From Desulfobacteraceae bacterium (GTDB taxonomy: Bacteria > Desulfobacterota > Desulfobacteria > Desulfobacterales > Desulfobacteraceae): DNA of 64,000 bases. Positions 22,695 to 26,857 of the stretch are shown here, in pieces; position 1 is the stretch's first letter, and each line of letters starts with the position of its first letter. The stretch spans positions 17,768 through 81,767 of the forward strand of contig JADGFI010000025.1 in assembly GCA_016743945.1 (NCBI GenBank), written 5' to 3'. Made by a program: the position numbers and the translations under genes. The notes beneath the pieces were generated by a model. That model did not search any database, was not told the origin of the DNA, and was given only the letters and a program-made list of their open reading frames with translations.

Positions 22695-23102
22695 TTACAA
22701 TTCTATTTGCTTTTCCTTTTTAAACCCGGCCATAAAAGAGGCACTCTCTTTTCCAGGGGCAAGACGACTGGAAGTTTTGCAGGAAACCTCGGCATTTAAA
22801 ACACCCCCATTTTCAACGATTAGATCCTGGCATTCTACTTTCCCGGCACAAATCCCGGTCGCCAGTATAATCAATTCCTTGGAAGCCGCGACATCGCCTT
22901 TAAAGTTGCCACCAATGGTCAGACTGGATACCTTTGTTGAACTGGAGTTAACAACCCCATCCTCTGCAATAATGACAATATCACCGTCAATGGTTCCGGT
23001 CACCTGCCCTTTAATAATCAACTTTCCAGTGCTGGATATGGACCCGTCTATTTTAAGCTCTTTATCAATGATTGATAAGTTTTTTCTGTCTTTTTTCCCC
23101 AC
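22695..23102 (-). CDS. Bactofilin (CcmA-like polymer-forming cytoskeletal protein)
   Basis: A bactofilin-domain (DUF583) protein of about 136 aa: short beta repeats with hydrophobic periodicity, as in IDGSISSTGKLIIKGQVTG and SLTIGGNFKGDV, form the right-handed beta-helix that polymerises without nucleotide. GTG at 23102 is the likely start, with GAGGAG seven bases upstream; the track start at 23168 would overlap the upstream peptidase gene. Bactofilins position cell-wall enzymes. Being next to a Csd4-like and a Csd6-like peptidase strongly suggests a role in cell shape, as for CcmA in Helicobacter. Confidence 0.9.
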   Translation of the reverse strand: MGKKDRKNLSIIDKELKIDGSISSTGKLIIKGQVTGTIDGDIVIIAEDGVVNSSSTKVSSLTIGGNFKGDVAASKELIILATGICAGKVECQDLIVENGGVLNAEVSCKTSSRLAPGKESASFMAGFKKEKQIEL

Positions 23103-23121
23103 TGTATGTCTCCTCGCATCC

Positions 23122-24624
23122 TTATGATTTAATGTCGATATAAATCCTGCCAACTTCATTTCCCGCAAGTGTAGTTACCACATAATAGTGCCTGCCTTTT
23201 TTTTTCAGAGAAAACCTCGGAATAAGGACGCCGGCACCGGTATCAATAACATATCCCCTGTCTTCACCTGTATTTATGCTATTATTACCGACAAACCCTT
23301 TAAAATTGACCACATATTCAGAAGGGTCTATATCACCGGTAATAATATCCTCGATAATCAATTTGTCACCCAATTGAATATTCACATGACTGTAATTTTC
23401 TGCAATAAGCGTGCTACCATTAATCTTTAGTTTATAACGGATAGTGGCCGCCTCGTTTGATGCACGCCCCAAACGCTTGCTGTTGGTATCAATAGTATCA
23501 TGAAAATCTAAAAAGACACTGCCACAGGCATAGAAATCTTTTTTTGCTTCTATCCGAGTGGGTTCATTAATGATCAATTTTTTTTCCATATCATTATAAT
23601 CGTTCCCTGCCCCCAGAACATCCACACTCAATCCCCGCTCATAGTTCGCCACAATGTCATGAACTTGGATGGTATCCCCCCGGTTGATTTTCAGGCGATG
23701 CATTTTCCCTACTACAACAGGGATGGCGTCATTGACGGAAATGATCATATATTCCATCTGGGGTTTTTGTAAATCTATGCCAGGCGTCTGGGGCAAAATA
23801 CCCAAAATGTCCATAAAACCGTTAATAGCATAAATGTGTTGCCGCACCTTTAGTTCCAGGGGGAGCGCCTTAGCGGATTCAATACCAAATGCCGGTATTT
23901 TGCAAACGTTCATTGCGTAATAGGTAGCAGATCTGCGTTGTTCCTTGTGGGAGGTATCCGGATGATTGGTCCGATGATTGTTAAAATGAAAATGAATTGC
24001 CTCATCCTCGATATTCTCGTTAATTTTATCAATAACCTGTTGCGCCATAGCCTTAAGATCCACGGATGCAAGGTTTTCACCTGGATAGAGAATCGCATCA
24101 TCGGCAATCACAGATTGACCATATTTTTTTGGGTTTCTGTCCAAGGTTTTCCAGGTCGATGAATAGAAACCGGATCCCTCGTGAAGATTGATAAAACAAT
24201 CACTTTCACAAATGAGTTTTTTTAGGACATCCACTACCTTGGCTTCATAATTCAAAGTCGTGTCATCCATGAATTTACGATTCATGTCCTGATTAATCTG
24301 TCTTTCTTGTTTCAAAATAGAAGGAAAATTTGCCCTGGGCACGACAATGAGATTTCCCTTTTCAAGGGAAAAATCAGCATAAAAATCAGCCGCTAGAAAA
24401 CCGCCTGGCTCATCCCCTTGAATTCCTCCGATAATCAATAGGGTTTTCCCCGGTTTTGATCCGAATATCCGGTATACATTCAGCTCATTTTTCTCGCCTT
24501 GAAAAAAAACAGTGTGGGTTCTCTGGCCAGCCATGGCTACAGACCCGATCAGCATAACGCCCAAAAAACCCGAAAAAAGTATAATTCCAAGCTTTAATAT
24601 AGATTTCTTAAAATCAGACTTCAT
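23122..24624 (-). CDS. M99-family (Csd4/Pgp1-like) peptidoglycan carboxypeptidase
   Basis: A 500-aa exported zinc carboxypeptidase. The signal segment is about residues 12-32. The zinc site shows GGIQGDEPGG (Gln69 and Glu72) and NLHEGSGFY (His148). A glutamine in place of the usual first His is the known oddity of Helicobacter Csd4, which trims tripeptides to dipeptides and sets helical cell shape. The C-terminal half has beta domains like those of Csd4. It overlaps the upstream coiled-coil gene by 4 bases and precedes the bactofilin gene by 19 bases, so all are one operon. Confidence 0.85.
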   Translation of the reverse strand: MKSDFKKSILKLGIILFSGFLGVMLIGSVAMAGQRTHTVFFQGEKNELNVYRIFGSKPGKTLLIIGGIQGDEPGGFLAADFYADFSLEKGNLIVVPRANFPSILKQERQINQDMNRKFMDDTTLNYEAKVVDVLKKLICESDCFINLHEGSGFYSSTWKTLDRNPKKYGQSVIADDAILYPGENLASVDLKAMAQQVIDKINENIEDEAIHFHFNNHRTNHPDTSHKEQRRSATYYAMNVCKIPAFGIESAKALPLELKVRQHIYAINGFMDILGILPQTPGIDLQKPQMEYMIISVNDAIPVVVGKMHRLKINRGDTIQVHDIVANYERGLSVDVLGAGNDYNDMEKKLIINEPTRIEAKKDFYACGSVFLDFHDTIDTNSKRLGRASNEAATIRYKLKINGSTLIAENYSHVNIQLGDKLIIEDIITGDIDPSEYVVNFKGFVGNNSINTGEDRGYVIDTGAGVLIPRFSLKKKGRHYYVVTTLAGNEVGRIYIDIKS

Positions 24625-25568
24625 AAACTCGGTTCTTCCTCGGTTATATCAATGAGACTCTCAAACATCAGATCCCCATTTTCATTAAAAATATAGATGG
24701 CTGCTTTTTTGAAAAAATCCGGCCCTGCCTGATTTTCGATCCTAAATTTTACAGGTTTAAAATGTGCAATGGAAAAGTATTGTCCCTTTTTGTATTGAAC
24801 CGGTACCCCTTTGTCCAATTTTGCACTAGGGACAACCAGCCAACCTTTCTGTGATTCGTTATCCGGCTTGAGTATGGTAAATATACGCCCGGAAACGCCA
24901 CCGGGCTTATCGGATATATTCCGGATATCAAACCGCACAAGAAGATCCCCATCTGCACCATCCCGGGTAACAACAAATTTTTCAATAGCAACTATCTGCT
25001 TAACAGGCGTTTTTAATTCCAGTGCCGTCTGACCTGGTCCCTTGGCTTTCTTTTCAGCAGCCGTACCTATTTTAACTGCCGGAACCAATTTTTTAGGGGG
25101 AACTTCCACCGTGGTTTTAGGAACAGTCCCCACACTTTTTAAATCCGATTTTTTCTTGATGCCGGCTTTTTTTTCTTTTTCAGTTGCCCCTGGTGCTATA
25201 GTTGATGGTGCTGACAGCGTTGACCGGGTGCCTATCCCTGGTTCTTTTCCTGAAATAACCAGCCTCGCCATAAGCACTTCTCGTTCATTGATTAATCGAT
25301 CCACCTTTTTTACAAGTCCGGCCACTTCACGTTTAAGCCGGTTATTTTCAACGGCCTCATGGGTATAAGAATAATAGAGCCCACTGGCTGCTAAAAAACA
25401 GACAAGACTTGCCACCCCGAAAACATAGGCCAACACCTTAAGGTGCCCGGCCGATTTCATTTCCCCGAAATCATCAACCATCAGAATTCTTTTTTTTCTA
25501 CTTTTTTTATATGGAGATGGTTTTAACTGGGTTATTTCTCTTTCCAGCTCTCTCGAGATATCTTCCAT
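24621..25568 (-). CDS. Single-pass coiled-coil membrane protein of the cell-shape block, unknown family
   Basis: A 315-aa protein I do not recognise. It has a basic cytoplasmic N-terminus (KKSRKKR near residue 25), one membrane helix (about 43-65), a short coiled coil (about 72-105), a Lys/Pro/Thr-rich linker (about 110-195) and a C-terminal beta-rich domain from about 198. The layout suits a bridge between a cytoplasmic filament and periplasmic enzymes, somewhat like Helicobacter Csd5 or Csd7, but no similarity is visible by eye. AGGTGG precedes the ATG. It overlaps the Csd6-like gene by 37 bases and the Csd4-like gene by 4. Confidence 0.75.
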   Translation of the reverse strand: MEDISRELEREITQLKPSPYKKSRKKRILMVDDFGEMKSAGHLKVLAYVFGVASLVCFLAASGLYYSYTHEAVENNRLKREVAGLVKKVDRLINEREVLMARLVISGKEPGIGTRSTLSAPSTIAPGATEKEKKAGIKKKSDLKSVGTVPKTTVEVPPKKLVPAVKIGTAAEKKAKGPGQTALELKTPVKQIVAIEKFVVTRDGADGDLLVRFDIRNISDKPGGVSGRIFTILKPDNESQKGWLVVPSAKLDKGVPVQYKKGQYFSIAHFKPVKFRIENQAGPDFFKKAAIYIFNENGDLMFESLIDITEEEPSL

Positions 25569-26857
25569 AATCCACCTTTCCTCACAAGTTTAAGATGTTT
25601 TGTTCCCTGGGTTGAAAAACTGCTGGATTCATAATTCTGGAAAAAATAAACATCACAGCGATCTTTCTTTTCAATTATTTTAAAATCCTCGCCTGTCACA
25701 GTGATATAATTATATTTTTTAGCCAGTTGTCTTTTCCGGTTAACCCAGGCTTTTTTTCCAAGTCCATCCGAAGAAAAATTTGCGGCATAAATCCCGGCAT
25801 AGGCATCCATATCTTTTGAAGACCATGCTGTCAGCCAGCGTTGAAGTGTTTCCATGACCGATGCTTGTCCAGGGTTATAGTTTACCAGCTTTTGAGCGGC
25901 AGCAATCAAAGGAAAATCAGCGGTTTTATAAGCATGTGACTTTTTTTGAAGTGTATCACCTATTATTTTATAGGTTTGACCCGATTCCTCAACAAAAAAC
26001 TTTCGTTTCCCAATTAGAATTTTTTCCTTATCCTTTTCGTTGCCATGGGAAAGTATCAAATCAAACAAGACCACTATAGTTAAATTATGGGCGTATATAC
26101 CGACATTGGCCGTTTGAATCTTTAGCAACACCTTGTCTCCCATGGATTTCTTCCTTAATCCAAGCCAGGTTTCCCACCAGGAAATATTGGGTACATATTC
26201 ATCGGAATAAAAATCAAGATATTGGTGATAACTGCCGGCTTCAATGGACTGGGACCAATTATCCAAAAAGCTACGGACTCTTTTTTCCAAATCTGCCTGT
26301 AGGTTGGAATCCGTTTTTACAATTTTTTCAACAATAATCAAGGGGGTAGAATCCAGCCGAATATAATCGGCCAGAGAAAGAATATTATCATTTTCAAGGG
26401 CAATACATCCATTGGAATCCATGGGTTTTAAGGCTTTATCTGTACCATGAATCCAGATGGCAGATCCATTTTTACCCAACCGTTGATCATAAAAATTCGG
26501 ATAATCAGAAGGAAAGGCTTTTTTCCCGTATATGGGCGTAAGATAGCGATCTTCATATTCATCTGTTAAAAAATAAATCCCTTCAGGTGTTTTTTTATCG
26601 CCTGCTTTATTCTTGTCCCCAAAAATTTCACCGGTTGAACAAGCAGCAGAAAATGCAAGACTCAGACCTTTTTTTTCCTGGGAATAAACATAAATCGTCT
26701 GGCTTTGTTTTTCCACCAGAATGGCGTTTTCATTTTCCGGCAAAAGGATAATGGAATTTGGCAAATCACTACCGACAGCCTGACTCTGGGACAATACCAG
26801 AACGGCAACGAGCAAATAAACAGCAAAAGGAACTTTAAACATCATTATTATTTTCAC
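25532..26857 (-). CDS. Csd6/Pgp2-like YkuD-fold peptidase with two NTF2-like domains
   Basis: A 441-aa exported protein. After a signal peptide (to about residue 29) comes a YkuD (L,D-transpeptidase) domain with [19 protein letters not shown], which holds the catalytic His and Cys. The Arg that normally follows the Cys in transpeptidases (CIR) is Ala here. Two NTF2-like domains follow (about 195-290 and 325-441). YkuD plus NTF2 is the build of Helicobacter Csd6 and Campylobacter Pgp2, which act as L,D-carboxypeptidases; those have one NTF2 domain. It starts with GTG overlapping the ruvB stop. Confidence 0.83.

Follow-up and report, generated by a model that had tools for sequence, protein, structure and literature searches.

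A candidate transmembrane adaptor between a bactofilin and two peptidoglycan carboxypeptidases in a conserved operon of Desulfobacterota

Within a 64,000-nucleotide stretch of DNA from a Desulfobacteraceae bacterium of the sulfate-reducer type (the window), we describe an ancient operon that probably, though by no means certainly, encodes one envelope-spanning wall-editing module, in which an unnamed single-pass coiled-coil protein (labeled cc here) would act as the adaptor between a bactofilin and two enzymes, YkuD and M99. Gene order, gene fusions and joint losses all indicate that cc belongs with the bactofilin and the enzymes. Its predicted layout, together with the analogy to known systems, suggests that cc most likely links scaffold and enzymes.

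Results

Re-reading of the open reading frames and family searches confirmed four genes, ykuD, cc, m99 and bactofilin, all on the minus strand and preceded by tol-pal-ruvCAB in the same direction. The original prediction of four overlapping or near-abutting genes was borne out: ruvB and ykuD overlap by 4 nt, ykuD and cc by 37 nt, and cc and m99 by 4 nt, while 19 nt separate m99 from the bactofilin gene. The block has the following features:

25532 to 26857, minus strand: YkuD-NTF2 enzyme, 441 aa, secreted (Pfam YkuD E 2e-19, Cds6_C E 1.2e-17)
26333 to 26728, minus strand: YkuD catalytic domain, residues 44-175, with H137, C151 and A153
25928 to 26305, minus strand: likely first NTF2-like domain, about residues 185-310 (Cds6_C E 0.02 on the isolated region)
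25550 to 25858, minus strand: second NTF2-like domain, residues 334-436 (Cds6_C E 1.2e-17)
25532 to 25568, minus strand: overlap of the ykuD end with the cc start, 37 nt
24621 to 25568, minus strand: cc, 315 aa, single-pass coiled coil with a C-terminal Ig/FN3-like domain, no Pfam/NCBIfam family
25449 to 25490, minus strand: predicted cytoplasmic beta-hairpin of cc, residues 27-40, just before the TM helix (AF2 pLDDT about 75-80)
25251 to 25448, minus strand: predicted TM helix and coiled coil of cc, helix 41-106 (AF2 pLDDT mostly 86-97)
24645 to 24995, minus strand: predicted periplasmic Ig/FN3-like beta-sandwich of cc, residues 192-308 (AF2 pLDDT about 88-97)
23122 to 24624, minus strand: M99 metallocarboxypeptidase, 500 aa, with signal peptide (Pfam Peptidase_M99 E 1.6e-38)
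22695 to 23102, minus strand: bactofilin, 135 aa from GTG (Pfam Bactofilin PF04519 polymerisation core, E about 1e-18)

Throughout Desulfobacterales the block keeps its order in the ruvB-rplM interval, and the 37-nt ykuD/cc overlap is retained in almost every locus of this order with full-length ykuD. The arrangement ykuD-cc-m99(-bactofilin) recurs in other Desulfobacterota families without the tol-pal-ruv or rplM context. The four genes are thus a conserved unit, as had been proposed, and the block is not an accident of the ruvCAB neighborhood. Clustering of envelope housekeeping genes (tolB, pal, ybgF, ruvCAB, rplM) could in principle explain a shared operon with no common function, and the block does follow tol-pal-ruvCAB in one direction; however, the recurrence of the order away from these genes, the YkuD-cc fusions and the joint losses all speak against such an account, which is already disfavored and to which we give very little credence. 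In other families an extra gene lies between ruvB and ykuD; judging from its start it is presumably a SAM hydroxide adenosyltransferase, and we regard it as a passenger.

Outside the window's taxonomic order, at least one partner adjoins cc in 27 of 33 separate cc loci. Both ykuD and m99 are adjacent in 17, of which 7 also carry the bactofilin gene; ykuD-cc-m99 without an adjacent bactofilin is the commonest arrangement (10/33). Bactofilin is the only neighbor at six loci and ykuD at four, and six have no partner nearby. The cc gene mostly lies between the two enzyme genes. When 21 cc-carrying genomes, most of which have no bactofilin gene next to cc, were screened for a bactofilin at any position, 20 encoded one; the single exception is a genome that is 78% complete. 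At three loci the Ig-like domain of cc is fused to the C-terminal end of a YkuD-NTF2 enzyme (i-E 1e-25 at L099, 2e-22 at L104 and 2e-17 at L115).

The states seen at one site comprise the full block, a short ykuD with cc and bactofilin, cc with bactofilin, the short ykuD alone, and an empty ruvB-rplM interval. Within the window's family, a bactofilin is present in 23/23 genomes with cc versus 3/12 without it (p 3e-6), and the module's M99 in 0/12 genomes lacking the second NTF2 domain of YkuD versus 21/27 that have it (p 5e-6), although the genomes behind both comparisons are not independent and represent about six separate events.

One explanation of these arrangements is that cc is primarily a membrane-anchored cofactor that stabilizes or activates YkuD and M99, its bactofilin association being secondary; Csd7, which supports Csd1 in H. 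pylori, offers a parallel. The prevalence of ykuD-cc-m99 without adjacent bactofilin, the fusion of the Ig-like domain to YkuD itself and the ykuD/cc coding overlap are all consistent with this role. Yet cc and bactofilin persist together after the enzymes have been lost (L041, L042 and L120, as well as the cc-bactofilin pairs at L103, L106, L107, L110, L119 and L129), and cc never outlives the bactofilin in the window's family. We therefore consider a role confined mainly to the enzymes rather unlikely, and favor an adaptor that serves both sides. Points that weigh against this adaptor are the many loci outside the order where the enzyme genes flank cc but no bactofilin gene does, the six cc loci with no partner nearby, and two relatives, L171 and L173, in which the bactofilin gene adjoins ykuD with no detectable cc.

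Searches of Pfam and NCBIfam returned no family for cc, in agreement with the original choice of cc as the best candidate for an undescribed component. Its family is present in 39 of 58 relatives and widespread in the phylum; a single-sequence scan of genome contigs gave one close relative, and whole-genome searching performed far better. A plasmid search found no cc relative on plasmids. In the AF2 model, a flexible linker joins the coiled coil to the periplasmic Ig/FN3-like domain, which is conserved in sequence and whose Foldseek matches are FN3/Ig-like domains. The model agrees with the earlier suggestion that the layout of cc suits it to joining the cytoplasmic bactofilin with the periplasmic enzymes. 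Gly35 of the hairpin is near-invariant across the cc family, and by analogy with the LmdC hairpin we propose it as the putative bactofilin contact. Two candidate kinships were rejected. DUF6776, a gammaproteobacterial coiled-coil family that occurs near bactofilins, gave one weak match among 32 cc members (E 0.017) and one match, below its cut-off, in 99 genomes of the phylum, showing no relation to cc. An hhalign comparison also ruled out that the Ig-like domain duplicates the one at the C-terminus of M99 (probability 0.8%).

The YkuD enzyme is predicted to be an LD-carboxypeptidase of the Csd6/Pgp2/Bd1075 group. It had been described as Csd6/Pgp2-like; the YkuD-NTF2 class stands, but the top PDB match is 7o21 (E 4.6e-41), identified as Bdellovibrio Bd1075 in PMC8938487, and Csd6 and Pgp2 are much weaker. 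The active-site residues H137 and C151 occur in 47/47 aligned YkuD sequences, and position 153 is A, V, S or T across them and R in none. The replacement of the post-Cys Arg by Ala (A153) was read correctly, but it is not unusual: Ala is normal for the Bd1075-type group, and the Bd1075 report gives Ala or Val, not Arg, as the rule for the second position after Cys in LD-carboxypeptidases (PMC8938487). Two NTF2 domains had been called, of which the second is certain and aligns with 7o21; the first is likely, given its E-value of 0.02 and a modeled helix-helix-helix-strand order that matches its counterpart. The model behind this comparison was built from two sequences and is of low confidence (pLDDT 39), and was therefore used for helix/strand order only. 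Both Bd1075 (7O21) and the window enzyme have an NTF2 domain with a C-terminal Trp (W303 and W438, respectively). In contrast, Bd1075 has one NTF2 domain and the window enzyme a second that tracks the presence of M99, and the available part of the Bd1075 account gives no bactofilin/M99 operon (PMC8938487).

The M99 peptidase matches Csd4 (PDB 4q6m) with E 6.3e-31. Q69, E72 and H148, correctly identified at the outset, and the catalytic Glu249 are invariant in the 39 aligned sequences with letters there; their Csd4 counterparts are Gln46/Glu49/His128/Glu222. Assignment to the Csd4-type subgroup proper did not hold. The window M99 belongs to a diverged subtype and stands apart from the Csd4-type M99s also found in the phylum: PF17033 scores about 1e-38 in the former versus 1e-60 to 1e-94 in the latter, which adjoin cc in 0/7 cases. 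An M99_C match at the C-terminus of the window M99 is weak (E 0.11).

Family searches also upheld the bactofilin (E about 1e-18), but its start is most likely GTG 23102 and not TTG 23168: starting at the TTG would add N-terminal residues that close relatives lack and whose codons run into m99. When N-termini were compared, the window bactofilin, which begins (V)GKKDRKNLSIID, had no membrane-targeting peptide of the MFxK/MFSKKKK type (consensus from PMC12448750), and the same applies to the MFSK-type peptide in Desulfobacterales bactofilins adjoining cc. A 2025 membrane-binding study describes the commonest N-terminal motif of Thermodesulfobacteriota bactofilins as fundamentally different and unexplained (PMC12448750). 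As an argument for a cc anchor the missing peptide is only suggestive, because its correlation with cc breaks outside the window's taxonomic order, where cc-adjoining bactofilins at L102, L103 and L106 have MTS-like starts; some bactofilins elsewhere lack an MTS though no cc is adjacent.

Discussion

Bactofilin partners of comparable design have been described. In Caulobacter, the cytoplasmic tail of the membrane protein PbpC binds the bactofilin BacA and can replace its targeting peptide; PbpC, however, is a wall synthase with a short N-terminal peptide, and Caulobacter BacA has a targeting peptide of its own (PMC12448750). In Hyphomonas neptunium and Rhodospirillum rubrum, a hairpin of LmdC binds the bactofilin BacA (PMC10945521). 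The BacA-LmdC system resembles the window in its overlapping genes and in pairing a bactofilin with a bitopic partner, and the bactofilin recruits a wall enzyme, as we propose for the window module (PMC10945521). LmdC and the modeled cc are alike in layout, with a cytoplasmic beta-hairpin, TM helix, coiled coil and periplasmic domain, whereas LmdC has its own M23 peptidase and cc a non-enzymatic Ig/FN3-like domain plus two separately encoded enzymes. The hairpin link is one of layout only, since the hairpin alone has no detectable sequence homology to LmdC-like hairpins: hhalign gave a probability of 4% for hairpin plus TM against 63% for TM plus coil only, and the cc profile matches to M23 proteins arise mostly from the TM helix and coiled coil.

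The helical-shape proteins of H. pylori are Csd4, Csd6, CcmA, Csd5 and Csd7. As in the window, this set combines an M99 carboxypeptidase, a YkuD-NTF2 LD-carboxypeptidase, a bactofilin and non-enzymatic single-pass proteins bridging to CcmA; the window differs in having one operon, an Ig-like instead of an SH3 domain in the single-pass protein, and a diverged M99 subtype. Csd5 binds peptidoglycan outside and CcmA inside, and CcmA depends on it to reach the envelope (PMC9507126). On this precedent, cc could be a peptidoglycan-binding or curvature-reading bactofilin anchor, with the enzymes in the same pathway but not in contact with it, which would suit the conserved beta-domain at its C-terminus and the existence of cc-bactofilin pairs without enzymes. 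However, the model and Foldseek matches indicate an Ig/FN3-like sandwich, not an SH3 domain, this domain is directly fused to YkuD enzymes at three loci, and cc sits mostly between the two enzyme genes, all of which makes a Csd5-like anchor distinctly improbable in our estimation.

For the adaptor that we favor, we propose that the hairpin of the cytoplasmic tail of cc binds the bactofilin polymer and would thereby tether it to the membrane, given that the bactofilin itself lacks a membrane-targeting peptide. The TM helix and coiled coil would cross the inner membrane, and the Ig-like domain on its flexible linker could hold or position both carboxypeptidases, YkuD and M99, in the periplasm. 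The second NTF2 domain of YkuD may take part in pairing the two enzymes. Trimming of peptidoglycan stem peptides would thus be limited to bactofilin sites, and such localized trimming would govern the mechanics of the wall there and, through it, the form of the cell. Gene order, conservation, fusions and joint losses are observed and the fold is predicted; what we infer from them are the binding contacts, the specificity of the enzymes and the effect on shape.

The operon bears on two questions: by what route bactofilins without a targeting peptide get to the membrane, and in what way a cytoplasmic scaffold steers wall trimming outside; the Bd1075 study found no mechanism by which such an enzyme is confined to one cell side (PMC8938487). 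We tentatively suggest, with somewhat less assurance than for the module itself, that cc may be the founder of an unrecognized, phylum-wide group of non-enzymatic bactofilin adaptors, which would replace the missing membrane-targeting peptide of Thermodesulfobacteriota bactofilins and load the YkuD/M99 pair across the membrane. The operon offers a candidate adaptor, with a domain expected for each side of the membrane, and makes both questions testable.

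The four genes and their recurrence as a unit

All four genes of the original prediction were found as described, in a minus-strand block that begins with a 4-nt overlap with ruvB and ends 71 nt short of rplM:

25532-26857, minus strand, ykuD, YkuD-NTF2 enzyme
24621-25568, minus strand, cc, single-pass coiled-coil protein of 315 aa with a periplasmic Ig/FN3-like domain
23122-24624, minus strand, m99, M99 peptidase
22695-23102, minus strand, bac, bactofilin

Only one coordinate was changed: bactofilin translation most likely begins at GTG 23102, since a longer reading runs into m99 and close relatives start at the same Gly-Lys-Lys.

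A survey of the block across Desulfobacterota, proposed with that prediction, showed that it recurs as a unit. Most Desulfobacterales loci whose flanks are complete show the order ruvCAB-ykuD-cc-m99-bac-rplM, and wherever ykuD is full-length its last 37 nt nearly always overlap the start of cc. Elsewhere in the phylum the block is free of the ruv and rplM context, and at least one partner adjoins cc in 27 of 33 separate loci outside the order: ykuD and m99 in 17 (seven also with bactofilin), bactofilin only in six and ykuD only in four. The phylum search for cc gave matches in 72 of 297 genomes, the weakest being coiled coil only. At three loci (L099, L104, L115) the Ig-like domain of cc forms the C-terminal part of a YkuD-NTF2 enzyme, and this fusion is a direct sign that domain and enzyme act together in the periplasm.

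Some loci depart from this arrangement. Six cc genes (L108, L109, L111, L112, L124, L126) have no ykuD, m99 or bactofilin nearby; at L124 and L126, cc lies upstream of what we take, from the gene starts, to be a tsaD-like gene and one resembling a 16S rRNA dimethyltransferase. Cc-like genes stand on either side of a bactofilin gene at L129:5429-8067. In other Desulfobacterales families, loci L047-L049, L053-L055, L061, L062 and L064 carry an extra gene between ruvB and the block, presumably SAM hydroxide adenosyltransferase-like (TDFG...YVGxMKG start).

Natural deletions at the ruvB-rplM site

Within Desulfobacteraceae, the ruvB-rplM site holds the full block, short ykuD (lacking the second NTF2 domain) with cc and bac, cc and bac, short ykuD alone, or nothing. 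Bactofilin occurred in 23 of 23 genomes with cc versus 3 of 12 without it (p 3e-6), and the module's M99 in 21 of the 27 genomes whose YkuD keeps the second NTF2 domain versus none of the 12 lacking it (p 5e-6), p-values that overstate the case because the genomes are related, with about six separate losses counted by genus. The bactofilins of the three cc-less genomes are of other or divergent types. In one genome (G022) the second NTF2 domain survives as a remnant with stop codons. Seven loci (L164-L170, in G018, G033, G024, G032, G023, G006 and G029) retain at this site a YkuD with the first NTF2 only, having lost cc, m99 and bactofilin; this is possibly a stand-alone form with a different job.

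The two enzymes

The YkuD enzyme has active-site residues His137 and Cys151 and, as predicted, an alanine: Ala153 stands where most LD-transpeptidases have an Arg after the Cys. Among solved structures its best match is 7o21, identified as Bd1075, the Bdellovibrio curvature enzyme (PMC8938487). In that paper a C-terminal Trp, W303, is called special to Bdellovibrio homologues; it corresponds to W438 of the window's enzyme, which 38 of the 48 aligned rows retain. The same paper describes the NTF2 domain as the part that positions Bd1075 within the cell (PMC8938487), from which we infer that the second NTF2 domain may help pair the YkuD enzyme with M99 or with the scaffold.

The M99 peptidase had been assigned a Csd4-type zinc set. 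Q69, E72 and H148 do match Csd4 and, with E249, correspond to its metal site and base (Gln46, Glu49, His128, Glu222), but judged by its PF17033 score (near 1e-38, against 1e-60 to 1e-94 for a second M99 type of the same phylum), the enzyme belongs to a diverged subtype. By our own count, 23 of 32 module-type genes lie next to cc or to a YkuD that carries the Ig-like domain as a fusion; for the second type the count is none of seven, a zero that rests on gene neighbourhood for five and, for genomes G165 and G194, on the phylum search listing no cc. The second, Csd4-like type (L179, L180, L181, L147, L149, L150, L156) is unlinked to cc, and it coexists with the module in five genomes (G003, G005, G030, G042, G048).

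The coiled-coil protein and its proposed link to bactofilin

Cc belongs to no Pfam or NCBIfam family, 31 of its relatives gave nothing beyond scattered coiled-coil matches against either, and a profile search of PDB sequences returned coiled-coil and transmembrane noise only; among open-licence papers we found no account of cc or of this operon. In a structure model built from 32 sequences, residues 5-13 form a cytoplasmic helix and 29-39 a beta-hairpin; a single helix (41-106) crosses the membrane and runs on as a coiled coil, and a disordered linker leads to a beta-sandwich (192-308, pLDDT about 88-97). Foldseek placed the sandwich near FN3/Ig-like domains of sugar hydrolases, with a low overall score because the match covers only a third of the chain. 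From a Lys/Arg-rich stretch before the transmembrane helix, the probable orientation is N-in and C-out. The best-conserved parts are the Ig-like domain and residues 1-13, and hairpin Gly35 is near-invariant. The overlap with the ykuD coding sequence accounts for part of the constraint on residues 1-13, though two loci (L041, L042) retain them where ykuD is absent.

This layout is that of LmdC, an M23 peptidase of Hyphomonas and Rhodospirillum whose cytoplasmic region binds bactofilin, and whose accumulation with bactofilin on the inner curve is lost when a beta-hairpin in that region is mutated (PMC10945521). Cc has an Ig-like domain where LmdC has its peptidase, and the resemblance is a likeness of plan rather than membership, since the hairpins are not demonstrably homologous. 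The window's genome also encodes an M23 peptidase of LmdC-like build (short cytoplasmic stretch, transmembrane helix, coiled coil, M23) far from bactofilin (G000:C277:20607-21527; L158, L194). Within the family, genes of this kind disappear along with bactofilin (both present in 25 genomes, both absent from eight, discordant in one each way), a hint that the window's bactofilin is a real scaffold.

A less likely account, in which cc is primarily a partner of the YkuD and M99 enzymes, draws on the modules without an adjacent bactofilin, although nearly all of their genomes have a bactofilin elsewhere. The bactofilins adjoining cc in Desulfobacterales are without the MFSK-type peptide, and a different N-terminus is common in Thermodesulfobacteriota bactofilins, which may have another way of binding the membrane or another interaction partner (PMC12448750). 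On these grounds and its LmdC-like layout, we propose that cc would serve as membrane anchor and adaptor for bactofilin.
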